From: Planctomycetales bacterium
GTDB lineage: Bacteria > Planctomycetota > Planctomycetia > Isosphaerales > Isosphaeraceae
Reading direction: 5' to 3'
Length of the DNA stretch: 50,118 bases
NCBI GenBank assembly: GCA_027451885.1
Contig: DAIDHX010000064.1
Location: 1-50,118, forward strand
Made by a program: the position numbers and the translations under genes. Below the pieces are notes generated by a model that was not told the origin of the DNA, did not search any database, and saw nothing but the letters and a program-made list of their open reading frames with translations. This document shows, one piece after another, positions 4,701-50,118 of this stretch. The number at the start of each line of letters is the position of its first letter. Position 1 is the stretch's first letter.

Positions 4701-7530
4701 CAATTACACAAGCAATAGCGTCAACGAGTATACAACCGTCGGCGGCACGACCTACGGCTACGACGCCAGCGGAAACCTGGTCTCGAAGACCGACTCATCT
4801 GGTACGACTACTTACACCTACAACTCGCTCAATCAGCTTGTGAGCGAGGTTTCGCCCACCGACACCTGGCAGTACCAGTACGATGCCTTTGGCAATCTCT
4901 TTGCGGTCATCCACAACGGCCAGACCACAACTAACATGGCGGATCCGGCTGGATCTGGAACCACAGTCGCCCAGTGGAACGGCACGGGTGCGCTGCTGGC
5001 AAGCTATACCTACGGCCTTGCACTCACCAGCCAGAACACTCCCACGGCAACGAATTACTACCAGCTCGACGGTCTGGGTTCCGTGGTCGGCATGTCGAAC
5101 GGCGCCAGTGGCATGGTCGCGAACTATAGCTACCTGCCCTTCGGCGGCAAGCTCACGCAAAGCGGCAGCGCGGCCGGTACAAATCCGTTCGGCTTCCTGG
5201 GCGGGCTGGGGATGCTCACGCAAGGTGACGGCACGATCGCCATGGGTGCGCGGGCCTATGATCCCGCAACGGGGCAGTTCACCGCGAACGACCCCTTGAG
5301 CCTGGGCGGCAGCGACACCAACTTCCGCCGCTACGTGGGCAATTCGCCACTCCAGTTCACCGACACCTCGGGGCTCGGCGATACCGTGCCAGTTCCCCCG
5401 CCCCGCCAGCTCCCCGCGTGGTACCGGCTCAAGGATCTGCCCAAGTTCTTCTACAACGGCGATACCTATTTCGCGGAAACCTACTACTGGCGAGTCTACG
5501 CCGAGCTTCAGCAGAAGCAGTATTCCACGCTCAAGGGGATCAGGTCCGCGTTCTCGGCGACCAGCCAGATGATCCGGCGGACACGGCTCCAGGCCGCGTT
5601 CAACTCCGTCGAAACCGTCCAGGCCGAGCGGGGTGCGATTGGTGTTGGCGAAGGGATCCTGGGCAAGCTCGGCGTGATCGGCGGCATCGCGGATTTTATC
5701 TATCGCACGAACAGCATTCTAACGGATCCAAACAGCCCGTACCGGGTGATCAAGCTCACTCCCCAGGCTGAGCCGCGACTGTACGAGCTCAACGCCAAGA
5801 AGAAGGACCAACACACGCTCGTCGTGGTCACGACGTCGACAACCGTGGACACAACCCCACCCACCACGACGACCACGACCACCACGACCACCTCGAGCAC
5901 GGGAGGTGGAGGCGGTGGCGGAGGCGGAGGCGGAGGGTCCGGCGGCGCAGGCGCAGCCCACGATCCCAACGCTCTCATCGGACCATCAGGCCATGGCACC
6001 GCGAATTACGTCTCCGGATCCGCGCTCGCGGTCTATCCCTACCAGATCGACTACGAGAATTCGCCCACGGCCACCAGCCCCGCACAGGAGGTGGTCATCA
6101 CCGACCCAATCGATCCCAGCCTGAATCTCTCAACCCTCCAGTTGACGGGGTTCGGATGGGGCAACACGAACATCACCCTGCCGCCGGGGAGCCAGACCGA
6201 TCAGACCGCGATTCCCGTTACGGAAAATGGCACCAATTTTGTGGTCGACGTGAACATCAGCCTCGACTACCAGACGCGCACACTCACCGCGCGATTCCAG
6301 TCGGTCGATCCCACGACCGGACTACCGCCCGCGGCTCAAACCGGCTTCCTGCCGCCCGAGAACGGCACCGGACAGGGATCGGGATATCTGGCCTTCACCA
6401 TCCTGCCGAACTCAGGACTCACAACCGGAACCGCGATTCGCAACGTGGCGAACATTGTCTTCGACGGCCAGCCGCCGATCGCCACCGACCTGGTCAACGA
6501 CTCCAACCCGGGCGCGGGGGTTGATCCCAGCAAGCAGGCGCTGATCACGATCGACCAGGCCGTGCCCACATCGAGCATGGCTGCCCTGCCCCCGACCGAG
6601 ACAAGCGCAACATTCCCAGTCTCATGGTCCGGCAGTGACGGTCAGGGCGCAGGCATCGCTTCGTACAACGTCTACGTTTCGGACACCGGTGGTCCCTACA
6701 AACTTTTCAAGGCGAACACGGCTGCGACCTCCGCCAGCTTCACCGGTGTGGCCGGCCATACTTACAGTTTCTATACCGTGGCCACGTCGTACACAGGGTT
6801 TGTGCAGCCGAAACCGAGCGCTGCACAGGCGACGACCGAAGTCGTACTTGCGCCTCCTCCACCGCCTCCTCCACCGCCGCCGCCGCCGCCCCTGGTCACG
6901 CTTAGCTCCGTACTCGACGTCGAGAACAAGAACCACCTGGTCACCGAGATCATCATCACGTTCACGGGAGCACTCAGCCCAGGGACGGCGGAGCAGCTTG
7001 CTGCCTATCACCTGGCAACGCCCGGTAAAGGGCACTCATTCACGGCCAGGAATGCCGGCATGATCAAGATCGGATCTGTCGCACTCGATGCTCCCAACGT
7101 CGTGGCGCTCTACCCCAGGAAGCCGTTCAATTTCTCCAGGCCGGTACAGCTCACGGTTCACGGCGAGCCGCCGAGCGGTGTGCAGGATGTCTACGGACGA
7201 TACATCGACGGCGACAACAATGGCGTCCCCGGCGGCGACGCGGTCCGCGTTCTCACCAGGAATTCCCCGCACGTGGTTGTGTTACCGCCCAAGAAACCCA
7301 GGCCGCCCAGGCATCCGAAGAAACCGAAGCATCCCAGGATCGTCGATCACGGGCATGGCCCGCACGGCCGAATTGTGCATGGGATCCGCTCCGACACACG
7401 ATTCGGCCACGCGATCCACGACGCTGCGCTTGCCGGCCACGGCGCGCGGGGAGCGCAGCACGAACATCTGCGCGAGCTCGAGATCGAACTCGCCATGGCG
7501 GCTGCCAAACGGCGCCATGGTCGAACCTGA
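1717..7530 (+). CDS. Giant RHS/YD-repeat surface protein (C-terminal part after the TAG)
   Basis: Residue numbers count from the formal GTG at 1717, which sits inside a beta-sandwich repeat and is probably not a real start; the frame is open back to 1618. In order: the rest of the PPC-like repeat; an IPT/TIG-like Ig domain (~85-175); a CARDB-like segment; a DUF6531-like RHS entry motif with DFTRLYQSPLSYRD (~385-440); about 20 YD repeats (~500-1090, e.g. YTYDADGNTLS); and an RHS-associated core (~1115-1218, LDGLGSVVGM through GARAYDPATGQFTANDPL). Unlike polymorphic-toxin Rhs proteins it does not end shortly after the core. It continues for ~720 residues: a Thr-rich then Gly-rich linker (nt ~5850-5945), a DUF11-like domain, a fibronectin-III domain, a 13-proline run (nt ~6850-6890), an Ig-like domain ending in DGDNNGVPGGD (a calcium-loop-like motif), and a very basic Lys/Pro/His/Arg tail. 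Probably a cell-surface or extracellular fibre-like protein. Confidence 0.85.
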   Translation: MALTSTEVLSVALADSNSSDVNQIYARLGAPPTPSNYSSAWSNGVTSSPSLIIPSAAPGTWYFLVNTVSASASSDFSITAKASSLSLSTAYPTQAGANAGTVLTLTGAGFQSGTAVKIVSGSSASYAASTVTIDTPTQLTAVFDLSSVPQGSYTVVATNPDGSTSSVGPFTVVAPGAPHLVTHLTLPSLIGRHISSVFYVTYANTGTAAMTAPLLELGAAPEVINGQTIINLPLMTLDPALQTAGYWTSSKPAGYSHVIDILASGTEVPGMLEPGESITVPVYYAGMQQPWNFTETSFKFTLLDFGQSSTKKIDWKSQEANLRPPGISNTVWQAMFSTIQSQIGNTFGGYVKLLDQESAYLGSLGINDTSVADLWNFLLVQAEGLSPVEQMASATDLSMATPGQLTLDFTRLYQSPLSYRDAVGPLGYGWTDNWQYSLSVTKGGTVNVTMPGGLVRVFQPDSRGSDYFASPGDYGVLTQAAGGTYTLQEANGTIEAFNANGTLNYIADPNGNKITAGYTAGKLTSLTSSSGASLTIAYDAAGLIASVTTSDGREVTYSYDTGEHLTTVTSYGGQVTTYSYNNSSNAAINNSLSTITYPDSTSESFSYASNGFLSQIAQTGGADAVNYAQNLGEVTITDAAGNVSKDYFDQNGNLIKTVDALGNASYDSYNAQGELTSVTGPTGLTYSIGYDANGNPISVTDPLGQTTSYTYSSNQSQVTSITNPTGATTSFGYDASGNLTSIKSADNSVETIAYDALGNPTSITNANGQVTNYTTNSNGEVASVTLNGGTPIDYTYDSHGNLITAVQGTSTTSLTYNSSDFLTSVTFPNGTSLAYTYNAIGLRTQMVAKSGATVIETVNYIYNSLGQLTKLTDAGGNTIAAYSYDKVGNLISEVFGDGSSTTYTYDADGNTLSVINKAANGAVASSFVYTYNALGLISTMTTLQGTWTYGYDSDGQLTSANFASSNTALVPNQSLSYAYNAAGDRVSTVINGVTTNYTSNSVNEYTTVGGTTYGYDASGNLVSKTDSSGTTTYTYNSLNQLVSEVSPTDTWQYQYDAFGNLFAVIHNGQTTTNMADPAGSGTTVAQWNGTGALLASYTYGLALTSQNTPTATNYYQLDGLGSVVGMSNGASGMVANYSYLPFGGKLTQSGSAAGTNPFGFLGGLGMLTQGDGTIAMGARAYDPATGQFTANDPLSLGGSDTNFRRYVGNSPLQFTDTSGLGDTVPVPPPRQLPAWYRLKDLPKFFYNGDTYFAETYYWRVYAELQQKQYSTLKGIRSAFSATSQMIRRTRLQAAFNSVETVQAERGAIGVGEGILGKLGVIGGIADFIYRTNSILTDPNSPYRVIKLTPQAEPRLYELNAKKKDQHTLVVVTTSTTVDTTPPTTTTTTTTTTSSTGGGGGGGGGGGGSGGAGAAHDPNALIGPSGHGTANYVSGSALAVYPYQIDYENSPTATSPAQEVVITDPIDPSLNLSTLQLTGFGWGNTNITLPPGSQTDQTAIPVTENGTNFVVDVNISLDYQTRTLTARFQSVDPTTGLPPAAQTGFLPPENGTGQGSGYLAFTILPNSGLTTGTAIRNVANIVFDGQPPIATDLVNDSNPGAGVDPSKQALITIDQAVPTSSMAALPPTETSATFPVSWSGSDGQGAGIASYNVYVSDTGGPYKLFKANTAATSASFTGVAGHTYSFYTVATSYTGFVQPKPSAAQATTEVVLAPPPPPPPPPPPPPLVTLSSVLDVENKNHLVTEIIITFTGALSPGTAEQLAAYHLATPGKGHSFTARNAGMIKIGSVALDAPNVVALYPRKPFNFSRPVQLTVHGEPPSGVQDVYGRYIDGDNNGVPGGDAVRVLTRNSPHVVVLPPKKPRPPRHPKKPKHPRIVDHGHGPHGRIVHGIRSDTRFGHAIHDAALAGHGARGAQHEHLRELEIELAMAAAKRRHGRT

Positions 7531-7551
7531 GCAAGCAGGGCATGCGCGGGG

Positions 7552-7592
7552 GTGTCGTGCGACACAGGCGGGGGCTTCACGCAAAACGCGTG
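7552..7592. terminator. Hairpins between convergent genes (possible terminator)
   Basis: Two inverted repeats lie between the RHS gene and the convergent purine nucleoside phosphorylase. GTGTCG/CGACAC (7552-7565) has a 2-base centre, and CACGC-AAAAC-GCGTG follows at 7578-7592. Neither has a T-tract, so a bidirectional terminator role is an inference from position. Confidence 0.3.
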
Positions 7593-7623
7593 CGGCCCTC
7601 GGCAAGACAACAGACACATATGC

Positions 7624-8472
7624 TCATTTTAGCACGGCTATGCGATTCGCGAGTCGCTCGATCAAGCTGGCGAGCATGGGCCCAGCCTTGCGCCCGGCTT
7701 CAAGCACTTCTTCATGGGTAATCGGAGCACCCGTCACTCCCGCCGCGGCATTGGAAACGAGCGCGAGACCGAGGACCTCCATCCCCATGTGCCGCGCGGC
7801 GATTGCCTCGGGAACAGTTGACATGCCGACGACATCGGCGCCGAGAACGCCCAGCATGCGGATCTCGGCAGGTGTTTCGTAACTTGGCCCTGGCATGCAG
7901 GCGTAAACACCGGGCGTAAGCTCGACGCCGAGCGCAGCGGCTTCCTCGATGGCCCAGGAGCGCAGGCGTGCGGAGTAGACCTCCGTCATATCTGGAAAGC
8001 GCGGGCCAAAGCGGTCTTCGTTCACGCCGCGTAGCGGATTCGCGCCGAGGAGATTGAGATGATCCGTGAGCACGACCAGCCGGCCCGCGCCCAGATCGGG
8101 GCGAATCCCGCCTGTCGCCGCGGTCAGAATCAGGTGCTTCACTCCCAGCCGGCTCAGCACGCGAATCGGAAAAATCACCGAGTCCAGGTCATGCCCTTCG
8201 TAGTAGTGAAATCGCCCCTGATAAAGCAAAACGCGCACACTGCCGAGCGTCCCCAGCACCGCCTTGCCCTCATGCCCCGCCACAGTTGGCCGAGGAAAGT
8301 GTGGTATCGAACAGTAGGGGATTTCGAGGGGTTCCGCGATCTGGTTGGCCACATCGGCGAGTCCCGATCCCAGCACAATCGCGAGCGTGATTGGCTGGGC
8401 ATCCATGCTCCTGAGGACCGCGGCGGATACCTCCGCGCGATCGAACCAACTTGCACTGGCATCGGGTTTCAT
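7624..8472 (-). CDS. punA: Purine-nucleoside phosphorylase (trimeric type)
   Basis: Cleaves purine (deoxy)nucleosides with phosphate to free base and (deoxy)ribose-1-phosphate in the cytoplasm. The 282-residue length is normal for the trimeric PNP/MTAP family. Visible family motifs are LGSGLADVA (phosphate loop), HFPRPTVAGHEG, GRFHYYEGHD, the segment MPGPSYETPAEIR containing the conserved active-site Glu, and ALVSNAAAG with the Asn that in this family favours 6-oxopurines (inosine, guanosine). The ATG at 8472 is preferred over an upstream in-frame start because it overlaps the stop of the transporter gene in the arrangement ATGA, which suggests translational coupling. It is the last gene of the nucleoside-salvage operon. 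Confidence 0.93.
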   Translation of the reverse strand: MKPDASASWFDRAEVSAAVLRSMDAQPITLAIVLGSGLADVANQIAEPLEIPYCSIPHFPRPTVAGHEGKAVLGTLGSVRVLLYQGRFHYYEGHDLDSVIFPIRVLSRLGVKHLILTAATGGIRPDLGAGRLVVLTDHLNLLGANPLRGVNEDRFGPRFPDMTEVYSARLRSWAIEEAAALGVELTPGVYACMPGPSYETPAEIRMLGVLGADVVGMSTVPEAIAARHMGMEVLGLALVSNAAAGVTGAPITHEEVLEAGRKAGPMLASLIERLANRIAVLK

Positions 8473-9917
8473 AAGAGGATCCCCGCGATGCACGCCGAAA
8501 GATAGTTCGCGAGCGTTCCGGCCAGCAGAGCGCGAACGCCGAGCTTGGCGAGGTCGTGCCTGCGATCCTCAGCCAGTGCTCCGATGCCGCCAAGCTGGAT
8601 TCCGATCGAGCTGATATTCGCAAATCCGCACAGTGCGAAGCTCGCGATCACGAACGATCGGTCCATGAGTAACGGTTTGAGCTTGCCCAGGTCGTTGTAG
8701 GCCACGAGTTCATTGACGACGGTGCGGGTGCCAAGCAACGTGCCGACCGCGCGGCAATCTTCCCAGGGGACTCCGAGCATGTAAGCGATCGGAGCCATGG
8801 CCCAGCCGCAAAGTCCCTGGAGGGAAGTACCCAGCCGCTCGAGCCCCATGTTCACAAGCGCGATCAGTCCCAGGAATGAGATCAAGATCGCGGCGATATT
8901 GAGGGCGAGCTGCAACCCATCGCGGGTGCCGCGGGCGGCGGCGTCGAGCACATTGGCGTCGCGAGGCAAGTCCGCCGCGCGGATGCTTCCAAGTGTCTCT
9001 GGCGTCTCCGTCTCCGGCACGAGCAGCTTCGAGAGCAGGATTGCGCCTGGTGCGGTCATGATCACGGCGGCCAGGATGTGCCGCGCCTGCACGCCGGACG
9101 CGAAGTAAGCCGCCATCACACCCCCGGAAACATGCGCCATTCCAGAGGTCATCACAGTGAGGAGCTCCGATCGCGTGAGCCGCGGCAGGTACGGGCGGAT
9201 CGTCAGTGGGGCCTCGGTCTGACCCAGAAAGAGCGATGCGGCCACGTTGAGCGACTCCGCCCCCGATGTGCCCAGAAACTTGGCCATCACGAATGCGAAT
9301 GTCTTCACCACAAGCTGCATGACCCCGATCTGGTAGAGCACGGCGAAGAGCGCAGCCACGAAGATCACGGTCGGCAACACGCGGAAGGCGAACACGAATG
9401 CGCCGGGGCCGGCGGGATCGACAAGCGGTTTGCCAAACACAAACTGCGCCCCCTGAATCGCGCATTCCAGGATCGATTCCACCGTGGCGCCGGCCGCCTC
9501 GAGCAAGTCCGCGCCCATCTGCACGCGCAGCACGAAGATGGCGAAACTCCATTGCAGGACGAGACCCCAGAACACGACTCGTGGCGAGATCGCACGCGGA
9601 TTGTCCGAGAGAAAGACCGCCACTCCCAGAATCGCGATCATTCCAAGCAGCCCCCGCACGCGATCCGCCACATCGATCGGATCGATCCAGTCTGGCACCG
9701 AGAACTGCCAGCTCCAGCGCCCGATCGTGATCTGGTAAAACCTGTGCGTTTCGATCGCGTCGACGATCCTGATGTCAGCGGGCGGATCATCAGGGCTTTC
9801 GGCCGGCCTGGCCTCTGCCCCTTGCTGGCGTGTCTCGCGCCTGGGCTGAGCAGCGGAAGCTGGATCGGAGAGGCACAATCCAACGAACAGACAGCCGACC
9901 AGACCCACAATTCGCAT
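8469..9917 (-). CDS. nupC: Concentrative nucleoside transporter (CNT/NupC family)
   Basis: Inner-membrane symporter that takes up nucleosides with a cation. Many hydrophobic helices span the protein from about residue 85. CNT signatures are visible: GQTEAPL in the central region, the segment VNELVAYNDLG, and ALCGFANISSIGIQLGG near the C-terminus, which form the nucleoside- and cation-binding half-helices. The 482-residue length exceeds the ~400 of E. coli NupC because of an N-terminal extension: an apparent signal peptide ending ...DPASA-AQ, then a charged Pro-rich stretch. The ATG at 9917 overlaps the upstream phosphorylase stop (TGATG); a TTG one codon earlier is possible. Its place between two nucleoside phosphorylases strongly supports a salvage role. 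Specificity (purine or pyrimidine, H+ or Na+) cannot be told from sequence alone. Confidence 0.92.
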   Translation of the reverse strand: MRIVGLVGCLFVGLCLSDPASAAQPRRETRQQGAEARPAESPDDPPADIRIVDAIETHRFYQITIGRWSWQFSVPDWIDPIDVADRVRGLLGMIAILGVAVFLSDNPRAISPRVVFWGLVLQWSFAIFVLRVQMGADLLEAAGATVESILECAIQGAQFVFGKPLVDPAGPGAFVFAFRVLPTVIFVAALFAVLYQIGVMQLVVKTFAFVMAKFLGTSGAESLNVAASLFLGQTEAPLTIRPYLPRLTRSELLTVMTSGMAHVSGGVMAAYFASGVQARHILAAVIMTAPGAILLSKLLVPETETPETLGSIRAADLPRDANVLDAAARGTRDGLQLALNIAAILISFLGLIALVNMGLERLGTSLQGLCGWAMAPIAYMLGVPWEDCRAVGTLLGTRTVVNELVAYNDLGKLKPLLMDRSFVIASFALCGFANISSIGIQLGGIGALAEDRRHDLAKLGVRALLAGTLANYLSACIAGILL

Positions 9918-38241: not shown

Positions 38242-39450
38242 TCAAGTCAAATCGTTCGTCACCCCGGACTTCCACGCGATGCTGTGCTGGCGCAGGCCCT
38301 GCACGGCCGCTGTGACCGCCTCGACGGCAAAATCGATCTCTTCGGCCGTGGTAAATCGACTGATTCCGAACCGCAGGCTGGCCCGGGCGGTTTCCTCGTC
38401 AAGTCCCATCGCGGTCAGGACATGGCTGGGCTCGGGCTCCGCCGATGAGCAAGCAGAGCCTGAGCTCACCGCCACGTCGCGTAGACTCATGAGCAAGGCG
38501 CCGCCATCGACATCGCGGAAGCTCAGATTCAGGTTGCCGGGCAAGCGGCGCAGGGGATGCCCATTCACGCGGACCGCGGGGATGCGCTCGCACAGCCCTG
38601 CGCAGAGCCGCTCGCGCAGTTCGAGCACACGCGCCGATTCCCCGGGTCGCTCACGCACGGCCAGATCGAGCGCAACCCCCATCCCAACCACCAGTGGGAC
38701 GGGCAAGGTACCGCTCCGCAGCCGGCGCTCATGACCACCGCCGTCGACAAGCGGCTGGATCCGAAACGGCTGCCTTGAGCGATTCACGTAGAGCGCGCCA
38801 ACCCCCTTGGGACCATGGAATTTGTGCGCGGTCAGGCTCAGCAGATCAACGTGCTGCGCCAGCTCGGGCAAGGGAATCTTGCCCACGGCCTGAGCGGCAT
38901 CCGTGTGAAAGACCACTCCGCGAGACAGGCAGATCGCGCCAATTGCATCCACGTCGTTGAGCGTGCCGACCTCATTGTTCGCGGCCATGATCGAAACGAG
39001 CAGAGTGTCATCCCGAATCGCCTCGGCAACTCGGGAGGGATCGATGCCGCCGTACTCGTCGCACGGAAGCACCGTGACGGCATGGCCCTCGCGCCCCAGT
39101 TGCCGGATCGGGTCAAGAACGGCCCTGTGCTCGCTCGCGACCGTGACCAGGTGGGTGCGGACCTTGCTCCCCGCGCCCCTGGCAACCCCCTTGAGCGCGA
39201 GATTGTTGGACTCCGTCGCGCCTGAGGTAAAGATCACATCACGCGACTCAACCCCAAGCGAAGCAGCAATTTGCGACCGAGCCTGGGCAACCGCGTCCGC
39301 CGCCGCCCAGCCAAACGCGTGGCCTGCGCTCGCCGCGTTACCATAAAGATCCGAAAAGAAAGGAAGCATCGCCTCCAGCACACGCGGATCAACGCGCGTC
39401 GTGGCGTGATTGTCCAGGTAGATGGGTTTGCCTGGTCGGCGGTCGTTCAC
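38242..39450 (-). CDS. iscS: Cysteine desulfurase (IscS/NifS)
   Basis: PLP-dependent enzyme that takes sulfur from cysteine for Fe-S clusters. Opens IYLDNHATTRVDPRVLEAMLPF; PLP contacts in FTSGATESNNLALKG and ASEHRAVLDP; Schiff-base lysine in LTAHKFHGPKGVG; sulfur-accepting cysteine in the loop AVSSGSACSSAEPEPSHVL. 402 residues, as expected. It starts at GTG 39450 with GGGGGA about seven bases upstream. The group with the Ser-rich extended active-site loop points to the IscS/NifS class rather than SufS. It probably feeds the A-type carrier gene downstream. Confidence 0.94.
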   Translation of the reverse strand: MNDRRPGKPIYLDNHATTRVDPRVLEAMLPFFSDLYGNAASAGHAFGWAAADAVAQARSQIAASLGVESRDVIFTSGATESNNLALKGVARGAGSKVRTHLVTVASEHRAVLDPIRQLGREGHAVTVLPCDEYGGIDPSRVAEAIRDDTLLVSIMAANNEVGTLNDVDAIGAICLSRGVVFHTDAAQAVGKIPLPELAQHVDLLSLTAHKFHGPKGVGALYVNRSRQPFRIQPLVDGGGHERRLRSGTLPVPLVVGMGVALDLAVRERPGESARVLELRERLCAGLCERIPAVRVNGHPLRRLPGNLNLSFRDVDGGALLMSLRDVAVSSGSACSSAEPEPSHVLTAMGLDEETARASLRFGISRFTTAEEIDFAVEAVTAAVQGLRQHSIAWKSGVTNDLT

Positions 39451-39602: not shown

Positions 39603-39668
39603 TGACCTTCAGATTCCGATCACACCACAGGATTTGAAATGCAGGGCCAGACGGCAGGGAGGCCGGCC

Positions 39669-40391
39669 ATGAAAGACGAGAAGCGCCTGGCGGTCCGCGA
39701 GTTTACTCACTGGAGCAAGGGCTACGACCGTTCGATCCTGCAGTGGCTGCTCTTTTCACCGTCGCATCAGGCGCTCATCAAGCGCATTCGTGAAGTCGCG
39801 GGCGATCGCCCCACACGGTTGCTTGACGTGGGCTGCGGCACGGGAGTGTTCGCCGCTCTGGTACGGTCGACGCTGCCCAACGTGCAGGTCTGGGGGATCG
39901 ACCTGGTGGGAGGCATGCTCGAAAAAGGCCGCGCGCGCTGGCAAGAACATCGCGGCCGCGTGCTCCCCGTTCAGGGAGACAGCGAGAACCTGCCGTTCGA
40001 GACCGGCGTGTTCGACCTCGTCACGTGCGCCAACAGTTTCCATCATTATCCCCGCCAGGATCGGGCCGTGCAGGAGATGGCGCGCGTGCTCAGGCCCGGC
40101 GGCCGGCTCCTGCTCATCGACGGATATCGTGACAATATCTGGGGTTGGTTCATTTACGATGTGTGTGTGTCAACGGTAGAACAATGCGTGCATCATGCTT
40201 CCGCCGGGCGATTCCGGGCGCTTTTCTCGGATGCGGGGCTGGGGTCGGTGGTGCAGCATGTCCATCATGGGCCTGCACCTTTTATACTCAATGAAGGGAT
40301 CGCACCCGCGGGTGTGCCCCGGCCGCACTTTGGCGGTTTGCGGGTGGCAACTTCGCGACCATCGATCGACGAAGTCGGTCGAGGCGACTAA
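39669..40391 (+). CDS. Class I SAM-dependent methyltransferase
   Basis: 240 residues. The SAM-binding glycine motif is LLDVGCGTGVFAALV, followed by VWGIDLVGGMLEKG (acidic residue binding the ribose), GDSENLPFETGVFDLVTC and EMARVLRPGGRLLLIDGYRD. These are the motifs of UbiE/Methyltransf_11-type small-molecule methyltransferases; the substrate is unknown. ATG 39669 has GGGAGG about eight bases upstream; an ATG at 39639 is also in frame. It lies 103 bases before pfaD on the same strand, so it may modify the lipid product of the synthase, but membership of that cluster is inferred only from position. Confidence 0.88.
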   Translation: MKDEKRLAVREFTHWSKGYDRSILQWLLFSPSHQALIKRIREVAGDRPTRLLDVGCGTGVFAALVRSTLPNVQVWGIDLVGGMLEKGRARWQEHRGRVLPVQGDSENLPFETGVFDLVTCANSFHHYPRQDRAVQEMARVLRPGGRLLLIDGYRDNIWGWFIYDVCVSTVEQCVHHASAGRFRALFSDAGLGSVVQHVHHGPAPFILNEGIAPAGVPRPHFGGLRVATSRPSIDEVGRGD

Positions 40392-40494: not shown

Positions 40495-42099
40495 ATGGAG
40501 CGTCGGGACGTGGTCGAGGCCTCATCGTTTGCACGCAATCTCGACCGGGCACTCGAGAACGTCGAGCAACCATTCCAGGTTCGAGGCCGTGCGCCTCATT
40601 TTGAGGTGATTGACCTCGAGCCGGGCGGATTCGATGCCGAGGCGGGGGACGGTCAGGTCGCGAGCGTTCCAGCTTGCCCGCTCGAAAACCTGGGAGATCC
40701 CGGATTCGCGAACGAGCACGGTGTGCGCTTTGCTTGCATGGCCGGCGCGATGGCAAACGGGATCGCTTCGGTCGAGCTGGTGGAGACGATGGCGCGGTCC
40801 GGGTATCTGGGCAGTTTCGGCGCGGCGGGATTGCCGGTGGCGGAGGTCGAACGCGCGATTGACCGGCTGGAGCACGCGCTCGAGCCCGATCAGCCGCGCG
40901 CGTTCAACCTGATCCACAGCCCTGGCGAGCCCGATCTTGAGAACGCGGTTGTCGACCTTTACCTCAGGCGCGGAGTGCGGCTGGTTGAGGCATCGGCCTA
41001 TCTTCGGCTTACTCCGGCCGTGGTGCGGTATCGGGCGAAGGGAGTTTCGGTCGATCCATCGGGGCGGATTCAGGCGGCGAACCGAATCATCGCCAAGGTC
41101 TCGCGGGTCGAGGCCGCTGCGCGCTTCATGGCGCCTGCGCCGGAATCGATCCTGGCGGACCTGGTTGCGGCCGGCTCGATCACACGCAGGGAAGCCGAGC
41201 TCGCCGCGCGGATCCCGCTCGCGGAAGACATCACGGCCGAGGCCGATTCCGGAGGCCACACCGACAACCAGCCCGCAATCGCGCTTTTGCCAACCTTGCT
41301 CGCGCTCCGCGACAGCATGAGCCAGGAGCACGGCTTCGACCGGTCGATCCGCATCGGCGCGGCAGGGGGAATCTCTACCCCCTGGGCCGCCGCGGCCGCC
41401 TTCGCGATGGGTGCGGCCTATGTGGTCACAGGCTCCGTCAATCAAGGATGCGTCGAGTCCGGCACGAGCGATCCTGTGCGCGCCATGCTCGCCCAGGCCA
41501 GACAGGCGGATGTCGCCATGGCCCCCGCTGCCGACATGTTCGAAATGGGGGTCAAGGTGCAAGTGCTCAAACGAGGCACGCTCTTCCCCATGCGCGCGGC
41601 CAAGCTCTACGAGCTTTATCGCCAGTATGAATCACTGGATGAGATTCCCGCCGCCGAGCGCGCGAATCTCGAGAAAACCATCTTCCGCGCCCCGCTCGAG
41701 TCGATCTGGGAACAAACGAAGGCCTATTTCACGGCCCGTGATCCCAGCCGGATCGAACGCGCAGCCCATGATCCCAAGAAGAAAATGGCGCTCGTGTTTC
41801 GCTGGTACCTGGGCATGTCGTCGCAGTGGGCGAACGCGGGCGTGCCCGACCGAGCGGTCGATTACCAGATCTGGTGCGGTCCCGCGATGGCGGCGTTCAA
41901 CGACTGGGTGCGGGGAACCGTGCTCGAGTCGGTCGCGAATCGGCGGGCCGCAACGGTCTCCCAGGCGATCCTCCATGGCGCGGCGGTACTCGCCCGTGCT
42001 CAGGCCCTGCGCATGCAGGGCGTTGCCGTACCCGCGGGAATTCCCCGGCTCCGCCCGCTTTCGACGAGCCCGATTGTGAAAGTCCCGCTGTTTCCCTAG
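40495..42099 (+). CDS. pfaD: PfaD-like enoyl reductase (nitronate monooxygenase fold)
   Basis: In-trans enoyl reductase of polyunsaturated-fatty-acid/secondary-lipid synthases: an FMN TIM barrel that reduces the enoyl intermediates made on the multi-ACP PKS. PfaD-type motifs: the pair LGDPGFANEHGVRFACMAGAMANGIAS, GSFGAAGLPVAEV, FNLIHSPGEPDLENAVVDL, EASAYLRLTP, TAEADSGGHTDNQ, GAAGGISTPWAAAAAFAMGA and the C-terminal blocks RWYLGMSSQWANAG and FNDWVRGT. 534 residues is normal for PfaD. The ATG has AGGGA directly adjacent rather than spaced, and no better start exists before an upstream in-frame stop. It is 36 bases upstream of pfaA. Confidence 0.95.
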   Translation: MERRDVVEASSFARNLDRALENVEQPFQVRGRAPHFEVIDLEPGGFDAEAGDGQVASVPACPLENLGDPGFANEHGVRFACMAGAMANGIASVELVETMARSGYLGSFGAAGLPVAEVERAIDRLEHALEPDQPRAFNLIHSPGEPDLENAVVDLYLRRGVRLVEASAYLRLTPAVVRYRAKGVSVDPSGRIQAANRIIAKVSRVEAAARFMAPAPESILADLVAAGSITRREAELAARIPLAEDITAEADSGGHTDNQPAIALLPTLLALRDSMSQEHGFDRSIRIGAAGGISTPWAAAAAFAMGAAYVVTGSVNQGCVESGTSDPVRAMLAQARQADVAMAPAADMFEMGVKVQVLKRGTLFPMRAAKLYELYRQYESLDEIPAAERANLEKTIFRAPLESIWEQTKAYFTARDPSRIERAAHDPKKKMALVFRWYLGMSSQWANAGVPDRAVDYQIWCGPAMAAFNDWVRGTVLESVANRRAATVSQAILHGAAVLARAQALRMQGVAVPAGIPRLRPLSTSPIVKVPLFP

Positions 42100-42135
42100 C
42101 ATAACACCATTCGTTGTGAGCGGCCCTCGCCACGA

Positions 42136-45100
42136 ATGCGTGCGTGGGCCGCGACTCCCGCCGATCGAAAGGGCAGCGCGTTGAAGTCGTCCGTTCCCTC
42201 GAGACCCGTTCCGGTGGCCGTGATCGGATTGGGTTGCATGTTTCCTCAGGCGGAGGACGAGAAGCGGTACTGGGCGAACATCCGCGACGGCCGCGACGCC
42301 ATCACCGAGATTCCCGCCACGCACTGGCGCCCCGAAGAGTATTTCGATCCCGATCCCAGGGCGCCTGATCGAACCTACGCCAGGCGGGGCGGCTTTCTCA
42401 CGCCCGTCGACTTCCCGCTCATGGACTTCGGCCTGTCGCCGAACGCGATTGAGGCCACCGACACAACCCAACTTCTGGGCCTGCTGGCCGCGCGGTCCGC
42501 GCTTGAGAACGCCGGTTACGGCGGGGATCGAGGTTTTGATCGCGAACGCGTCAGTGTGATTCTCGGGGTCACAGGCGCGCTTGAGATGGTGGTACCGCTC
42601 GGCGCCCGGCTGGGCCGGCCAATCTGGAAACGCGCGCTCGCGGATTCCGGCGTCCCCACCGACCTGGCCGAACAGGTCTGCGACAGGATCGCGGCGTCGT
42701 ACGTCGGTTGGCAAGAGAATTCGTTCCCAGGGCTGCTGGGCAATGTGGCCGCGGGGCGGATCGCGAATCGGCTCGATCTCAAGGGCTCGAATTGTGTGGT
42801 CGACGCCGCCTGTGCCAGCTCGCTGGCCGCGCTCCACATGGCGATGCTTGAACTTGCCTCCGGGCGGTCGGACATGGCCGTTTGCGGCGGCGTGGATACA
42901 TTCAGCGACATTTTTATGTACATGTGCTTCAGCAAGACGCCCGCGCTTTCGCCGACGGGCGACGCCCGGCCGTTCGACGCCCAGGCTGACGGCACGATTC
43001 TGGGCGAAGGCGTGGGCGTGGTGGTGCTCAAGCGGCTTGACGACGCCAGGCGTGACGGCGACCGCATCCGCGCGGTGATCCGCTCGGTGGGGACTTCGAG
43101 CGATGGTAAGGGGCAGGCGGTTTACGCACCTTCGGCCGCGGGCCAGGCCAGGGCGCTGCGCGAGGCGTACACGCTGGCGGGGGCGTTGCCCGAGACCATC
43201 GAGCTTGTCGAAGCGCATGGTACCGGAACAAAGGTCGGCGACTCGGTTGAGCTTGCCGCGCTCGAGTCGGTTTACTCAGCTCAGGCGCAGGCGAGCGCCT
43301 GGTGCGCGCTTGGGTCTGTGAAATCACAGGTTGGGCACACCAAGGCGGCGGCGGGCGTGGCCGGACTGATCAAGGCGATCCTGGCGCTCGAACACAAGGT
43401 GCTGCCCCCCTCGATCAAGGTCAAGCGGCCGATCGACTCGCTGGCCACGGGCCGGTCGCCGTTTTACCTGAATACCGCCCCCCGGCCGTGGCTTTCGAGC
43501 GGACGGCACCCGCGCAGAGCCGCGGTGAGCGCGTTTGGTTTTGGCGGTAGCAATTATCATTGCGTGCTTGAGGAGGCCGAAGCGGTTGCGCAGACCATCG
43601 ACTGGGATGGCGACACGCAAATTGTCGCCCTCTCGGCCGACCGGCCTGAGACGATCGCACAGGAGCTCGCGCAGTTCGAGAAACCTTGCGAGTGGCAGGC
43701 GTTTCGGGCACAGGCCGCGCGGAGCCGCCGCGCGTTTCGCGCGGGCGACCTGCATCGCATGCTGTTCGTGGCCAGTCGCGGCGTGGACGATCCGGCCGCA
43801 CTGGCCGCGCGGGCGCGGAGCCTGCTTTCCACCGCCCGCGCTGGCGCGAGCACAGAACGCGGATCCGCCCGCATCGTGATTGGCGAGGGACGCCCGGCGG
43901 GCAAGCTCGCCGTGCTCTTCCCCGGCCAGGGATCGCAGTACGTGGGCATGCTGCGCGAGCTCGCGTGCCGATTCCCGGTCATGCATCAGGCCCTCGAGCG
44001 ATTTCACCGCCGCCTGCCTGAGCTCGCCGATCGCATCTATCCCCGGCGGCTGTTCGACGACCGAGACGCCAGGGCGGCCGAGGACGCGCTCCGCGACACA
44101 CGCTACGCCCAGCCCGCCCTGGGCGCAATCGCGCTTGGTCTTTGGCGCGTGCTTGAGCGCTTCGGCGTGCGGGCGGATCTGGCCGGCGGTCACAGCTTCG
44201 GCGAGCTCACCGCGTGGCTCGCCGCTGGACGCATCGATGAGGAGCGCTTCGCGGACCTTGCCATTCGCCGCGGAGCGCTCGCGGGCGCGTGCGCAGCCGC
44301 GGGGACAGGCGCGATGCTGGCGGTGCTGGCGCGGCTCGACATCGTCTCGAACCTCATCCGCGAGCACAACCTCGATCTCGTCATCGCGAACAAAAATGCT
44401 CCCGATCAGTGCGTGCTCTCAGGCTCGAGCGCAGAAATCCTCCGCGCCCGACGCGTCTTCGAATCGGCCGGCGTGGTCGTGCACGCACTCGGCGTCTCGG
44501 CCGCGTTCCATAGCCCAGGCGTTCGAGCGGCACGCGACCCGTTCCGCCAGGCGCTCGCGCAGGTCGACGTCCTGCCTGGTTCGATCCCGGTCTACTCGAA
44601 CTTGACCGCCGGGGCCTATCCTCACGCCGCCGACGCGGCACGCGACCTGCTCGCTGACCAGCTCACCGCCCCCGTCGAATTCACTGCCCAGGTCGAGGCC
44701 ATGCACCATGCCGGGGCACGCGTTTTCCTTGAGGTCGGTCCCGATGCCAAGCTCACCGGCCTGGTGCGGCGGATTCTTGCCGGGCGCGATCATGTTGCCC
44801 TGGCCGTTGATCCAGCCCGCGGCAAGGAGGGAGGACTGCGAGGTTTGGCGACCCTGCTCGCAAACCTGGCTGGACTCGGCTATGATATTGCACTTCGCGG
44901 CTGGGATGATGGTGAGCTCGAGCGCTCAGTCCCAGCGCGGAAGCCGGGGCTGACGGTCAAGGTCTCAGGCGCGAATGCGAAACCCGCGACCAGCGCCCGG
45001 GCCGCGAGCCCGCTTGCGGCCGCGAGTGAGCGCCCGGTGAAGAATCCCGATCGCCTCGAGCCCGCCACGACGACGCTCGTCCAGCAGGATGGAAACGCCC

Positions 45101-48100
45101 GGACCATGAACCCGCCGTCAGAGCCGTATCACCCGTTATCCCAATCAGTTGAGCGAAACGGCGAGCATCTTCCCACGGAGCGGAAGCCGGTCTCGCTCGA
45201 GTCGCTCCCGGTCGTGGCTGGCGATCGCCTGACTGCGGCGCGAGAGAGCCTGGCCGCACTCGAGCGCATGGCTGAGCGCACGGCCGACCTGCACCGGCTG
45301 TTCCTGGAAGGCCAGGAGCGCACCCAGCAAGCGTTCATGAAGCTGCTGGAGGAGCAAGACCGTCTTGGGCTGGGCGGGGCCTGCGTCCCGCCTGAGCCAC
45401 GCGCGCAGTCGCTGCCGGCACCCGCGCAGGCGGAGCTCAAGCGGCCGGCGCATCCGGTCGAGCCGCATCGCAACGGCAATGGCCACGCCGAGCCCGCTCG
45501 GTCAAGGCACACTCACACTCACTTGCCTGAGCCCAGCGCGCCCCGTGTCGTCGGGCCTGCGCCGCGACCCGCCACGCAGCCCGCCCAGGCACCGATTGCA
45601 ACCACCGCACACAAACCCACCCCCGCCTTCGAGTCCCTGTTGCTCGACGTCGTCGCCGAGAAAACCGGCTACCCCATCGAGGCGCTCGATCTCGACCAGA
45701 GCCTCGACGCCGACCTGGGCGTGGACTCGATCAAACGTGTTGAGATTCTCTCCGCGCTTCAGGAGCGTGTACCTGGCCTGCCAGCATTTGCGCCCGATCA
45801 ACTGGGCTCCTTGACGACGCTACGGTCAATCTTGCATCTGCTCTCCGTGCACCCTGCGCAGAGGCATGAGATCCCAGCGCATCCTGATCCGAAGCCTGAG
45901 ATCCCAGCTCAACCTGAGCCGGCCGCCGCGTTCGATCACGCGGGCCGGGCGCGGGCGGAGGCCGCAATCAAGCAAGCCATCGCGGACAAGACAGGCTATC
46001 CCGCGGAGATGCTCGCGCTCGAGATGACGCTCGACGGCGATCTGGGCATTGACTCGATCAAGCGCGTGGAGATTTTCTCAGCGCTCGAGGAGACGCTTCC
46101 AGGGGCACGCCGGCCCGATGCCGAGGCGATCGCCAGCCTGACAACCCTGGCGGCGATCGTGGATTTCCTCGCGGGAGGGGCAAACGCGTCGGCCTCGGCG
46201 TTAGAGGCGCCGCAGGCGCCCGCGGCCGCCGCGGCGATCGCGGCCGCGGATTCGCTCGCGCAGGTCGTCCTCGAAACCGTCGCGGACAAGACCGGCTACC
46301 CGGTGGACATGCTCGAGCTCGATATGGCCCTCGACGCCGATCTGGGCATCGACTCGATCAAGCGCGTGGAGATCCTCTCGGCCGTGCAGGAGCGCAGACC
46401 CGACTGCGTGGTCGTGGACGCCGAGGAGCTGGCCAGCCTTGCCACGCTCCGCGCGATCGTCGAGCGGCTCGGCAATCGACCGCCGACAACCAGTGAGATC
46501 CCCGCGCCTGAGTCGACTCTCGAGCCGGCAGGGACGCATCCGCCAGCTCCCTCGACGATTCCCAACGGCAAGGCCGAAGTCGCGATCACGCCGCTTTCGA
46601 TCCAGGCGCCACGAAGCGCGCTGCTTGAACGGATCGACGACGGGCAACACCCTGGCGCTGGCAGCGTATTCTGGCTCATGGCCGATGAGTCGCCGCTGTC
46701 CCGCGTGCTTGGCCGGCAGCTCGAATCAAAGGGGCTGCGCGTGGACCGGATCGATCCCGGCGCGTGCCCAAGCGAGCCTCCCGCGCTGGATGGGCTTGTG
46801 ATTCTCGCCCCCGAGCATCCCAGTCACGGATTCATCGAGCACGCCTTTGAGGTCCTGCACGCTTCCGCGCGAACGCTCAAGCGTACCGCGGAGACCCGGG
46901 GTGCGTTTCTGGCGTCGATCACGCGGCTCGGCGGATCGTTCGGGCTGAAGGGTGTCGCTGAATCCACCCAGGCGGAGACAGGCGCGCTCGCCGGCATGAT
47001 CAAAACCGCCGCGCTCGAGTGGCCAGGCGTGAATGCGAAGGCCATGGACGTTGATCCCAATCTCGATGCCGAGACCGCGGCCAGACGCATCATCATGGAG
47101 CTTGGCCACGCCGGGCCGATCGAGATCGGGATCCGCGGCGAGTCTCGGATCGGGATCGAGCTTGCGCCCTGGGCGCCCGCGGGCGATCCGCGTCCTCAAC
47201 CTTTGATTCGCCGGGGTGAGGTGATACTCGTGACGGGCGGAGCGCGGGGCGTGACCGCCGCGGCCGCGACCGCACTCGCGGAACGGTACAAGCCAACGCT
47301 TGTCTTGCTCGGCCGAGGGGCGCTGCCGGCTCCGGAATCGCCCGCGACCCGCGATTGCCGCACCGAGGCGGAGCTCCGTAAGGCCCTGCTCGATTCCTCG
47401 GCCGCCCGCTTGAGCCCTCGCGAGCTTGCCGAGTCCGCGCGGGCCATTCTCGCGGGCCGAGCCATGCGAGCGAACCTTGAGCGCATGCAGCGCGCGGGGG
47501 CGACCGTGATTCACGAACCCGTCGACGTCCGCGATCCGCACGCGGTGGGCCGGGTCATCGAGCGTATCCGCCGCGAACAGGGCGAGCCGCGCGGACTGGT
47601 TCATGGCGCGGGGGTGCTTGCCGATCGCAACATCACCGATCAGACGCTCGATCAGTTTCGCGTGGTGCACGGCACCAAGGTCCGCGGGCTCGAAAACGTG
47701 CTCGCGGCGCTCGATCCCCGGCTGCTCAGATTCGTCGCGCTCTTTTCCTCGTCCACCGCCCGCTATGGCCGGGTGGGCCAGGTGGCATACGCCGCGGCGA
47801 ACGAGGCCTTGAACAAGATTGGTCAGGCGCTCGCGACCCAGTTGCCGGAGACGCGCGTCGTCTCTTTTAACTGGGGCCCGTGGGACGGCGGGATGGTCGA
47901 TGCCAGCCTGGCGGCGGTTTTTCAGCGTGAAGGGATCGGGCTGATCCCGCTTGAGGCGGGTGCTCGCGTGCTGGTGGATGCGATTGAATCGGCGCCCGGA
48001 GAGCCAGTGGAGCTCGTGGTGATCGCGGGCGAGCCGCCGCAAACCGCGGCTCCGGCTCCTGGCCGCAGCGCAACGGTCCCCTCGGCGGGCGACGCGGAAT

Positions 48101-48987
48101 GTATCGCGCGCAGAGAGCTCAGCGTTGCCTCAGCGCCCGTGCTGGCCTCGCACGTGATCGACGGCCACGCGGTCCTGCCCATGGCGCTCATTCTGGAGTG
48201 GCTAGCCGAGGCGGCGGTTCAGCGCCATCCTGGGCTTGTGCTCGAGGGGCTCGACCAGCTCACGCTGTACAAGGGCGTGGTGCTCGCCGACGCGCCTGCC
48301 GTCACAGTGGAGACGTATCTTGCAAAGGGCCGGTGGGAATCGGGCAAGCTCCATGCTCCCGTGGAGATGCGCAGTACCGCGGCGAAGGGCCGCGTGTTCA
48401 CCCACGCCCGGGCCACGGTCATCCTGGGCGAGGCGCATGGGCCGGCCCTGCCTCGCCTGCAACCGATCATCGCCGAGCAAGGTCGGTTCGATCCCGATGA
48501 TTACTACCGCGAGGTGCTCTTCCACGGGCCCGAGCTCCGCGGGCTTGAGCGCATCGAGGGGCTCGACGCGCAAGGTGCAACGGCCTGGGCCATGGCCGCC
48601 CCCGCGCCCGCTCGCTGGCTCGAGTCGCCCCTCCGCGGCCTGTGGCTCACCGACCCGCTTGTCGTCGATTGCGCCTTCCAGCTCATGACCATCTGGTGCC
48701 GCGAACGGCTGGGAAACAACTCGCTGCCAACCGCCCTTGGTGCCTACAGGCAATATTGCGCTCGGTTCCCCCGGGAAGGTGTGCGGATCACGGCCCGGGT
48801 GAGCCGCTCAAGCGAGTCCCGCGCGGTCGCTGAACTGGAATTCAGCACCGGAACCGGCGAGCTGGTGGCCGCGATCACGGGTTACGAATGCGTGGTCGAC
48901 GCCTCGCTCAAGCGGGCGTTTCGGCGAAACCAATTGCTGGGTCTCGGCCAGGGATCGGCCGCGTCTTCTCTCTCGCGGGTCGATTGA
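42136..48987 (+). CDS. pfaA: PfaA-type multidomain polyketide/lipid synthase (KS-AT-3xACP-KR-DH)
   Basis: 2283 residues. KS ~25-465, with VDAACASS (Cys226), EAHGTGT and GHTKAAAGV. AT ~590-910: VLFPGQGSQYVG and GGHSFGE (Ser687). A charged linker, then three tandem ACPs with LGVDSIKR or LGIDSIKR at Ser1198, Ser1307 and Ser1407 (spacing 109 and 100). KR from ~1695: VTGGARGVTAAAA, Ser/Tyr in LFSSSTARYGR and YAAANEALNK. C-terminal PKS-type dehydratase: HVIDGHAVLP (HxxxGxxxxP, His2006) and VDCAFQ (Asp2178, Gln2182). This is the order of PfaA in PUFA synthases, so it should act iteratively to build a long acyl chain from malonyl units. The ATG at 42136 lacks a ribosome-binding site; a TTG at 42181 preceded by AAAGGG is an alternative. 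Its stop overlaps the next gene (TGATG). Confidence 0.95.
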   Translation: MRAWAATPADRKGSALKSSVPSRPVPVAVIGLGCMFPQAEDEKRYWANIRDGRDAITEIPATHWRPEEYFDPDPRAPDRTYARRGGFLTPVDFPLMDFGLSPNAIEATDTTQLLGLLAARSALENAGYGGDRGFDRERVSVILGVTGALEMVVPLGARLGRPIWKRALADSGVPTDLAEQVCDRIAASYVGWQENSFPGLLGNVAAGRIANRLDLKGSNCVVDAACASSLAALHMAMLELASGRSDMAVCGGVDTFSDIFMYMCFSKTPALSPTGDARPFDAQADGTILGEGVGVVVLKRLDDARRDGDRIRAVIRSVGTSSDGKGQAVYAPSAAGQARALREAYTLAGALPETIELVEAHGTGTKVGDSVELAALESVYSAQAQASAWCALGSVKSQVGHTKAAAGVAGLIKAILALEHKVLPPSIKVKRPIDSLATGRSPFYLNTAPRPWLSSGRHPRRAAVSAFGFGGSNYHCVLEEAEAVAQTIDWDGDTQIVALSADRPETIAQELAQFEKPCEWQAFRAQAARSRRAFRAGDLHRMLFVASRGVDDPAALAARARSLLSTARAGASTERGSARIVIGEGRPAGKLAVLFPGQGSQYVGMLRELACRFPVMHQALERFHRRLPELADRIYPRRLFDDRDARAAEDALRDTRYAQPALGAIALGLWRVLERFGVRADLAGGHSFGELTAWLAAGRIDEERFADLAIRRGALAGACAAAGTGAMLAVLARLDIVSNLIREHNLDLVIANKNAPDQCVLSGSSAEILRARRVFESAGVVVHALGVSAAFHSPGVRAARDPFRQALAQVDVLPGSIPVYSNLTAGAYPHAADAARDLLADQLTAPVEFTAQVEAMHHAGARVFLEVGPDAKLTGLVRRILAGRDHVALAVDPARGKEGGLRGLATLLANLAGLGYDIALRGWDDGELERSVPARKPGLTVKVSGANAKPATSARAASPLAAASERPVKNPDRLEPATTTLVQQDGNARTMNPPSEPYHPLSQSVERNGEHLPTERKPVSLESLPVVAGDRLTAARESLAALERMAERTADLHRLFLEGQERTQQAFMKLLEEQDRLGLGGACVPPEPRAQSLPAPAQAELKRPAHPVEPHRNGNGHAEPARSRHTHTHLPEPSAPRVVGPAPRPATQPAQAPIATTAHKPTPAFESLLLDVVAEKTGYPIEALDLDQSLDADLGVDSIKRVEILSALQERVPGLPAFAPDQLGSLTTLRSILHLLSVHPAQRHEIPAHPDPKPEIPAQPEPAAAFDHAGRARAEAAIKQAIADKTGYPAEMLALEMTLDGDLGIDSIKRVEIFSALEETLPGARRPDAEAIASLTTLAAIVDFLAGGANASASALEAPQAPAAAAAIAAADSLAQVVLETVADKTGYPVDMLELDMALDADLGIDSIKRVEILSAVQERRPDCVVVDAEELASLATLRAIVERLGNRPPTTSEIPAPESTLEPAGTHPPAPSTIPNGKAEVAITPLSIQAPRSALLERIDDGQHPGAGSVFWLMADESPLSRVLGRQLESKGLRVDRIDPGACPSEPPALDGLVILAPEHPSHGFIEHAFEVLHASARTLKRTAETRGAFLASITRLGGSFGLKGVAESTQAETGALAGMIKTAALEWPGVNAKAMDVDPNLDAETAARRIIMELGHAGPIEIGIRGESRIGIELAPWAPAGDPRPQPLIRRGEVILVTGGARGVTAAAATALAERYKPTLVLLGRGALPAPESPATRDCRTEAELRKALLDSSAARLSPRELAESARAILAGRAMRANLERMQRAGATVIHEPVDVRDPHAVGRVIERIRREQGEPRGLVHGAGVLADRNITDQTLDQFRVVHGTKVRGLENVLAALDPRLLRFVALFSSSTARYGRVGQVAYAAANEALNKIGQALATQLPETRVVSFNWGPWDGGMVDASLAAVFQREGIGLIPLEAGARVLVDAIESAPGEPVELVVIAGEPPQTAAPAPGRSATVPSAGDAECIARRELSVASAPVLASHVIDGHAVLPMALILEWLAEAAVQRHPGLVLEGLDQLTLYKGVVLADAPAVTVETYLAKGRWESGKLHAPVEMRSTAAKGRVFTHARATVILGEAHGPALPRLQPIIAEQGRFDPDDYYREVLFHGPELRGLERIEGLDAQGATAWAMAAPAPARWLESPLRGLWLTDPLVVDCAFQLMTIWCRERLGNNSLPTALGAYRQYCARFPREGVRITARVSRSSESRAVAELEFSTGTGELVAAITGYECVVDASLKRAFRRNQLLGLGQGSAASSLSRVD

Positions 48988-50118
48988 TGCCGGCCGATCA
49001 CGGGCGCGATGGGGCCCGAACGATTGTGATCGTGGGGATGGGAGCAACCTATCCCGGGGCTGACACCGCCGCGGGGTTGTGGGATCTCGTCGCGCAGAAT
49101 CGAGACGCCTGCACCGAGGTTCCGCAGGGGCGCTGGCTCGTCGATCCAGATGAGGCGTTCGACTCTCGCCCAGCCCAGCCCGATCGCGTCTGCTCGAAGC
49201 GCGGGGGGTTCGTTGCAACACCGCGGGTCGAGGCGCTCGCGCTCAAACTGCCGCCTGACCGCGTGCAGAGTCTCGACCCGCTCCACAAACTGGCGATCGC
49301 CGCCGCCCACGCCGCCTGGCAAGACGCCCAGCTTGCTCGCGTCGACCCCGCCCGGGTGGGCGTGGTCCTCGGCAACGTGGTACTACCCACCGAGACCTCC
49401 GCCCGCCTCACGGCCGACCTGCTCGGCCGCGCGTTCGATCATGCGCTCGGGCTCGATGCGGATAACGTCCCTCCCCTCGATCCTTACGCCGCCTTCCCCG
49501 CCGGTTTGCCCGCTGCGCTCGTGGCGCAGGCGCTTGGTCTTTCCGGCCCGGCGTTCACGATCGATGCCGCGTGTGCTTCGTCGCTCTATGCGGTCAAGCT
49601 TGGGATGGACTGGCTCCGCGCGGGACGCGCAGATGCCATGCTCTGCGGCGGCGTCTCGCGCCCGGATTCACTCTACACGCAGATGGGCTTCACGCAGCTC
49701 CGGGCGCTCTCCCCGCGCGGGCGGCCTGCGCCTTTTGATCGCGAGGCCGATGGGCTCGTGGTCGCGGAGGGCGCGGGGGTGGTGGTGCTCAAGCGGCTTG
49801 ACGACGCCCTTGCGCACGGCGACCGCATTCGCGGCGTCGTGGCCGGCGTCGGCCTCTCAAACGACCAGAGTGGCGAGCTCCTTGCGCCGAGCACCGATGG
49901 CCAGCTCGAGGCCATGAAGCGCGCCTACAGCGAGGCTGGTTGGACGCCCGCCGAGGTCGACCTTGTGGAATGCCACGCCACGGGCACTCCGCGCGGGGAC
50001 GCCGTGGAGCTCGAGAGCCTGCAAACACTCTGGCGGCAAGCGGGGGCAGAGCACCGGCCGGTGATCGGCTCGGTGAAATCAAACGTGGGCCATGCGCTCA
50101 CGGCCGCGGGCGCGGCGG
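48987..50118 (+). CDS. Second ketosynthase protein of the Pfa cluster (PfaC/PfaB-like), cut by the window end
   Basis: Starts MPADHGRDGARTIVIVGMG at the ATG overlapping the pfaA stop and stays open to the right edge (377 codons visible). It is a beta-ketoacyl synthase: active-site Cys196 in TIDAACASSLYAVK, then GVSRPDSLYTQMGF, AEGAGVVVLKRLDDA, His in VECHATGTPRGD and SVKSNVGHALTAAGAA. The complete Cys-His-His set means this KS is probably active. In Pfa clusters a protein beginning with KS after PfaA would be PfaC (KS-CLF-DH-DH) or a PfaB relative; the missing 3' end prevents a choice. It is probably translationally coupled to pfaA. Confidence 0.9.
   Translation, partial: MPADHGRDGARTIVIVGMGATYPGADTAAGLWDLVAQNRDACTEVPQGRWLVDPDEAFDSRPAQPDRVCSKRGGFVATPRVEALALKLPPDRVQSLDPLHKLAIAAAHAAWQDAQLARVDPARVGVVLGNVVLPTETSARLTADLLGRAFDHALGLDADNVPPLDPYAAFPAGLPAALVAQALGLSGPAFTIDAACASSLYAVKLGMDWLRAGRADAMLCGGVSRPDSLYTQMGFTQLRALSPRGRPAPFDREADGLVVAEGAGVVVLKRLDDALAHGDRIRGVVAGVGLSNDQSGELLAPSTDGQLEAMKRAYSEAGWTPAEVDLVECHATGTPRGDAVELESLQTLWRQAGAEHRPVIGSVKSNVGHALTAAGAA

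Follow-up and report, generated by a model that had tools for sequence, protein, structure and literature searches.

The window analysed here is the whole of contig C64 (50118 bases), and its end falls inside the KS domain of a pfaC-like gene, the third in a row of genes for a PUFA-synthase-like enzyme. As the window is the entire contig, the cluster was cut by the assembly and not by the choice of window. The locus raises two questions: which genes complete the cluster, and whether its product is a membrane PUFA or another lipid. Our reading, held at a probability of roughly 0.8, is that an Isosphaeraceae planctomycete carries a pfa-ole operon of Type I (pfaD-pfaA-pfaC-oleABCD), with its front half in the window, and that polyunsaturated acyl chains would be joined by OleA into a very long polyunsaturated hydrocarbon.

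Synthase genes and their neighbours in the window

The gene pfaD (40495..42099, + strand) encodes a trans-acting enoyl reductase of 534 aa that scored 653.7 bits against TIGR02814 (cut-off 449), with PfaD 6lkc and 4yx6 as the closest solved structures (E down to 5e-170). It is followed by pfaA (42136..48987, +), encoding a 2283-aa protein that scored 1439 bits against TIGR02813 (cut-off 1010) and whose Pfam domains and active-site motifs give the order KS-MAT-ACP-ACP-ACP-KR-DH. Since both scores lie so far above the curated cut-offs, the family matches are not due to chance. The domains of PfaA, all encoded on the + strand, are (i) an active KS (42211..43575; PF00109/PF02801), with its C/H/H residues in DAACASS, EAHGTGT and SVKSQVGH; (ii) a malonyl/acyl transferase domain (43915..44778; PF00698; GHSFGE); (iii) three tandem ACPs (45637..46473; PF00550 three times; three GxDSIKRVE motifs), the outer limits of the second and third being approximate; (iv) a KR (47224..47886; PF08659); and (v) a PKS-type dehydratase with a double hot-dog fold (48070..48891; PF21089 plus PF14765), with the His and Asp motifs HVIDGHAVLP and DCAFQ. 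Exactly three ACP motifs G[VI]DSIKRVE were found, at residues 1194, 1303 and 1403, each with the Ser of DSIK kept, and active-site residues were present wherever they were checked in PfaA (KS, AT, the three ACP serines and DH). The 5′ part of pfaC, of the pfaBC fusion kind (48987..50118, +), starts at 48987 and overlaps pfaA by one base (TGATG); by Pfam domains and its Cys and His residues it encodes an active KS, which the contig end truncates. A search of the window against Rfam gave no matches.

The arrangement given in the earlier note, with pfaD before pfaA, three ACPs, a PKS-type DH after the KR and an active KS entered through a one-base overlap, was thus recovered in full by profiles and motifs. 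Its view that this order is unusual does not hold, as Type J, Type L, the myxobacterial pfa1-2-3 and Geobacter have already been reported with pfaD in first place (PMC3098273, PMC4882568, PMC8436480); nor are three ACPs special, as two to four recur in the PfaA of relatives and of Geobacter.

A gene for a class I SAM methyltransferase (39639..40391, +; PF13649/PF08241) is located 104 nt upstream of pfaD, and its pairing with a divergent class V aminotransferase (window 38242-39450) next to pfaD is seen in only four close relatives. The methyltransferase is possibly a member of the operon, though more likely a syntenic neighbour. Elsewhere in the window, positions 1717-7530 encode an RHS-repeat protein of 1937 aa, in which nine RHS stretches were found. 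The source genome also harbours a second, different synthase (L002:7471-18350, on contig C17): its first protein, of 2403 aa, fuses enoyl reductase, KS, AT, one ACP and KR, and behind it come an AT protein of 1223 aa and an alpha/beta hydrolase. In the KS tree described below, the KS of this second synthase diverges close to the base of the Pfa group, on a long branch; a fused pfaDA has been reported elsewhere (PMC13291983).

Continuation of the cluster on contig C244

When the same genome was searched for KS domains, contig C244 was found to begin with a 1703-aa open frame. This frame opens with the C-terminal tail of a KS, FEILNAPRPW...GFGFGGINAHLLLEEW, which is exactly the tail missing from the window KS, where the sequence breaks off at ...GSVKSNVGHALTAAGAA. 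After about 33 missing codons, pfaC continues on C244 as CLF-AT-DH'-DH-DH'-DH: the CLF is without the active Cys, the AT is related to PfaB, and two of the four FabA-like hot-dog domains carry the catalytic His motif (HFVDDRVMPG and HFKDDPVWPG). Read across the predicted contig join, the window KS and the C244 frame make up a pfaBC fusion of the form KS-CLF-AT-DH2.

No sequence overlap was found between the end of C64 and the start of C244, and no read or assembly graph joins them; their adjacency is argued from relatives. On unbroken contigs of relatives, the genes are collinear in the order pfaD-pfaA-pfaC-oleA-oleB-oleC-oleD, and the stretch between the points that correspond to the window KS and the C244 start measures 99 nt in seven relatives, 102 nt in Singulisphaera sp. 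GP187 and again 99 nt in several of the more distant ones. In genome G015, a single contig of 790 kb carries the upstream neighbours seen in the window (class V aminotransferase and methyltransferase), the whole operon and nadA, which is also the gene downstream of oleD on C244. We infer, with near certainty, that C64 and C244 adjoin. A second assembly of the same genus (locus L028, on contig C229 of G001) is, like the window, broken inside the pfaC KS; a break at this point hides the ole genes from cluster finders that work on single contigs.

Four ole genes follow pfaC on C244, namely oleA (C244:5139-6191; 26 nt after pfaC; 458 bits against NF006720, cut-off 285), oleB for an OleB-like hydrolase (about 6200-7117), oleC (about 7120-8808; 652 bits against PRK09274, cut-off 478) and the OleD-like oleD (about 8800-9844), with OleC and OleD falling short of the narrow Shewanella/Xanthomonas equivalog cut-offs. 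The catalytic Cys, His and Asn of OleA are invariant in the OleA alignment and were also aligned to Xanthomonas OleA 3fk5. One OleA and one PfaD were found above the family cut-off in the source genome.

Among the genes scanned after oleD, no type III PKS, glycosyltransferase or pfaE (PPTase) was seen. An Sfp-type PPTase on contig C256 and an AcpS on C199, told apart by reading their sequences, are available for ACP activation. Of the genes that the earlier note had proposed to look for past the contig end, the CLF and the FabA-type DHs are on C244 and an Sfp-type PPTase is on C256. At the C terminus of PfaC, about 100 residues extend past the last DH motif, and an acyltransferase domain (AGPAT) was not found there; hence there is none at that position to pass chains to glycerolipids.

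Phylogenetic placement, known systems and spread of the pfa-ole linkage

The KS tree, a quick one of 48 domains with long outgroup branches, was used for its main split alone; it is without G. bemidjiensis and G. obscuriglobus themselves, and more distant PfaD relatives from plasmid records supplied comparison rows. In this tree, the PfaA KS falls in a 28-row clade (SH-aLRT 99) with ole-linked synthases of Geobacter, Trichlorobacter, Pelotalea, a Gemmataceae and Elusimicrobia, apart from the synthases of Psychromonas, Streptomyces and Azospirillum and far from the PKS and FabF-type KSs of the genome itself. On this placement, the clade is assigned to the ‘Type I' of Shulse & Allen 2011, who defined this secondary lipid synthase from Geobacter, Gemmata obscuriglobus and others (PMC3098273). 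Identification of a Pfa or secondary-lipid synthase in the earlier note is borne out both by this position inside the Pfa clade and by the TIGR02813 and TIGR02814 scores above cut-offs; in the tree, the KS is neither outside that clade nor that of a type I PKS fragment.

The cluster resembles Type I in its pfaBC fusion, in the grouping of its PfaA KS with Geobacter and Gemmataceae, in its linked ole genes and in having Planctomycetota among the hosts. No essential difference was found: the planctomycete host family is another one, and ACP number (three here) varies within the clade. In Geobacter bemidjiensis, pfaD, A, B, C, oleA, B, C, D and pfaE lie in tandem, and the organism makes the C31:9 hydrocarbon hentriacontanonaene (2016 review, PMC4882568). 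That cluster shares the gene order, with pfaD first and oleABCD after pfaC, but has pfaE after oleD; here, none was seen after oleD, and the Sfp-type PPTase is encoded elsewhere, on C256. The pfa-ole arrangement thus has a published precedent in Geobacter and occurs in many other bacteria, and the source cluster is a new example of it.

The other known systems share parts of this layout. The pfaABCDE plus oleABCD of Shewanella pealeana and S. oneidensis (PMC6463001) match it in enzyme set and, on the pathway proposed below, in the link of OleA via ACPs; in the marine type, the order is pfaA-B-C-D (seen in Psychromonas), whereas pfaD is first here, and neither of the two Psychromonas loci read has pfaC upstream of oleA. 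The canonical EPA/DHA cluster (Types A/B), with pfaA-B-C-D and a separate pfaB, was rejected as the type of the source cluster, given its leading pfaD and the AT inside its pfaC. The myxobacterial pfa1-pfa2-pfa3 (Type L; Aetherobacter and Minicystis; PMC4882568, PMC8436480) likewise have pfaD first, the AT inside the pfaC homologue and an unlinked PPTase, but the Type L PfaC homologue carries a C-terminal AGPAT; with no acyltransferase domain after the last PfaC DH motif, this type was rejected too. Type J of Planctomyces limnophilus (PMC3098273), with pfaD and then a pfaA with three ACPs, resembles the window taken alone; it has no pfaC, whereas the source cluster runs on past the contig end, and it was rejected since relatives show the continuation into pfaC and ole. 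The heterocyst-glycolipid type was rejected on the presence of DHs.

As several rows were missing from the OleA tree and its bootstrap was unsettled, pairwise identities were used in its place. The source OleA is mostly 50-67% identical to the OleAs of genomes with Type I-like pfa (54-57% to those of Psychromonas and Geobacter), 41-44% identical to those of six pfaD-less genomes from the same class and 36% identical to the solved Xanthomonas OleA. The higher identity to OleAs of pfa-carrying genomes than to those of pfaD-less ones marks it as of the Pfa-associated kind. In the imperfect tree, its branch is 1.05 long, against a median of 0.31 for relatives, and its catalytic residues are kept.

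Linkage was counted over the 80 OleA loci nearest to the source OleA in named genomes. The end of pfaC is located ≤400 nt upstream of oleA in 63 of the 80; pfaC is further off in three, none was found in up to 10 kb upstream in 13, and one locus is truncated. By record title, with MAG names as deposited, the linked loci come from Planctomycetota, Geobacteraceae and other Desulfuromonadales, Verrucomicrobia, Elusimicrobia, Acidobacteria, Hydrogenedentota, KSB3, Betaproteobacteria and Thiotrichaceae, and all 23 tested genomes with linked loci have a PfaD above cut-off. The pfa-ole coupling therefore recurs well beyond the lineages of the 2011 survey. Within Isosphaeraceae, an OleA above cut-off was found in 14 of 15 genomes with PfaD versus two of 10 without (Fisher P value=0.0003); in one of these two exceptions, the incomplete genome G012, a pfaC tail lies directly before oleA.

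The linkage is not universal. Two loci, L016 (G027) and L022 (contig C63 of G003), have pfaD-pfaA-pfaC with no ole genes in the 20 kb read; their PfaAs are about 35% identical to that of the window and group with Azospirillum, and G003 holds both this ole-less type and an ole-linked one. Because some relatives have oleA away from pfa, or pfa without ole, the two parts can work apart. At three further loci (L017, L025 and L169), a full-length PfaD was found with no PfaA detected within the stretch read; such an unpaired PfaD may serve another pathway.

Proposed pathway and product

A Pfa synthase holds its growing chains on tandem ACPs. From the genes, domains, active-site residues, gene order and conservation observed, we infer the following flow of acyl chains. 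The unlinked Sfp-type PPTase would activate the synthase, and PfaA, PfaC and PfaD would then extend a polyunsaturated acyl chain in iterative rounds while it is attached to the three ACPs; its methylene-interrupted double bonds would be set by the KR together with the PKS-type and FabA-type DHs, and its length by KS-CLF. OleA would take two chains directly from the ACPs and join them head-to-head; OleD would reduce the resulting beta-keto acid, OleC would make a beta-lactone and OleB would decarboxylate it, to give a very long polyunsaturated hydrocarbon for the membrane, probably C31:9 hentriacontanonaene or a close homologue. Length and unsaturation are not readable from sequence, and C31:9, taken from Geobacter, is the best guess. 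Precedent for the central step is provided by Shewanella, where OleA takes acyl groups from the Pfa ACPs and so links the two pathways: in the work of Allemann et al., Shewanella OleA was shown to turn Pfa-derived chains into a 31:8 ketone in an E. coli fadD strain, and the authors put forward 16:4 acyl-ACP as its substrate (PMC6463001).

Because oleABCD follow pfaC, a long-chain polyene, which the earlier note had guessed at, is a likelier product than a membrane PUFA. It is unlikely that the main product of the synthase is a membrane PUFA (EPA, DHA or arachidonic acid), with ole diverting a minor share as in Shewanella. True PUFA synthases do have the domain set found here, KS-MAT-ACP-KR-DH / KS-CLF-AT-DH2 / ER, and one Shewanella synthase does yield both EPA and hydrocarbon (PMC6463001); yet ole directly follows pfaC here and in those 63 loci of many lineages, Isosphaeraceae genomes without pfa nearly always lack OleA, and PfaC is without a C-terminal acyltransferase such as the myxobacterial AGPAT (PMC4882568). 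A saturated, hydroxylated or other non-polyene specialised lipid (heterocyst-glycolipid-like or phenolic-lipid-like) is highly improbable. Such lipids are made by the pfa-like Types F and P (PMC3098273), but Type F is without DH/I domains, and neither a type III PKS nor a glycosyltransferase appeared among the genes scanned past oleD; the motifs are intact here in both active FabA-type DHs and in the PKS-type DH, which leaves the hydroxy lipid considered in the earlier note without support. As for a fragment of a modular type I PKS, or a C244 that stems from another cluster while the window cluster is without CLF, DH2 and ole, the window does itself end in a KS and Type J is just pfaD-pfaA (PMC3098273), but this is scarcely credible against the PfaA KS position in the tree, the single PfaD and single OleA above cut-off and a C244 start that fits the missing piece to within the relatives' 99 nt.

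For the polyunsaturated hydrocarbon as product, a wider claim is tentative and rather doubtful: that in Isosphaeraceae the synthase is dedicated to the hydrocarbon with no membrane PUFA made, and that across bacterial phyla such synthases are used most often in the ole-coupled form and not in the omega-3 form. The product is directly testable, as the operon is carried by two relatives listed under strain names and not as MAGs, Singulisphaera sp. GP187 and Aquisphaera insulae. The cluster adds modestly to what is known, through its host family, the completion of the operon and the range of lineages that show the coupling, and it places a planctomycete family among the likely makers of polyunsaturated long-chain hydrocarbons.
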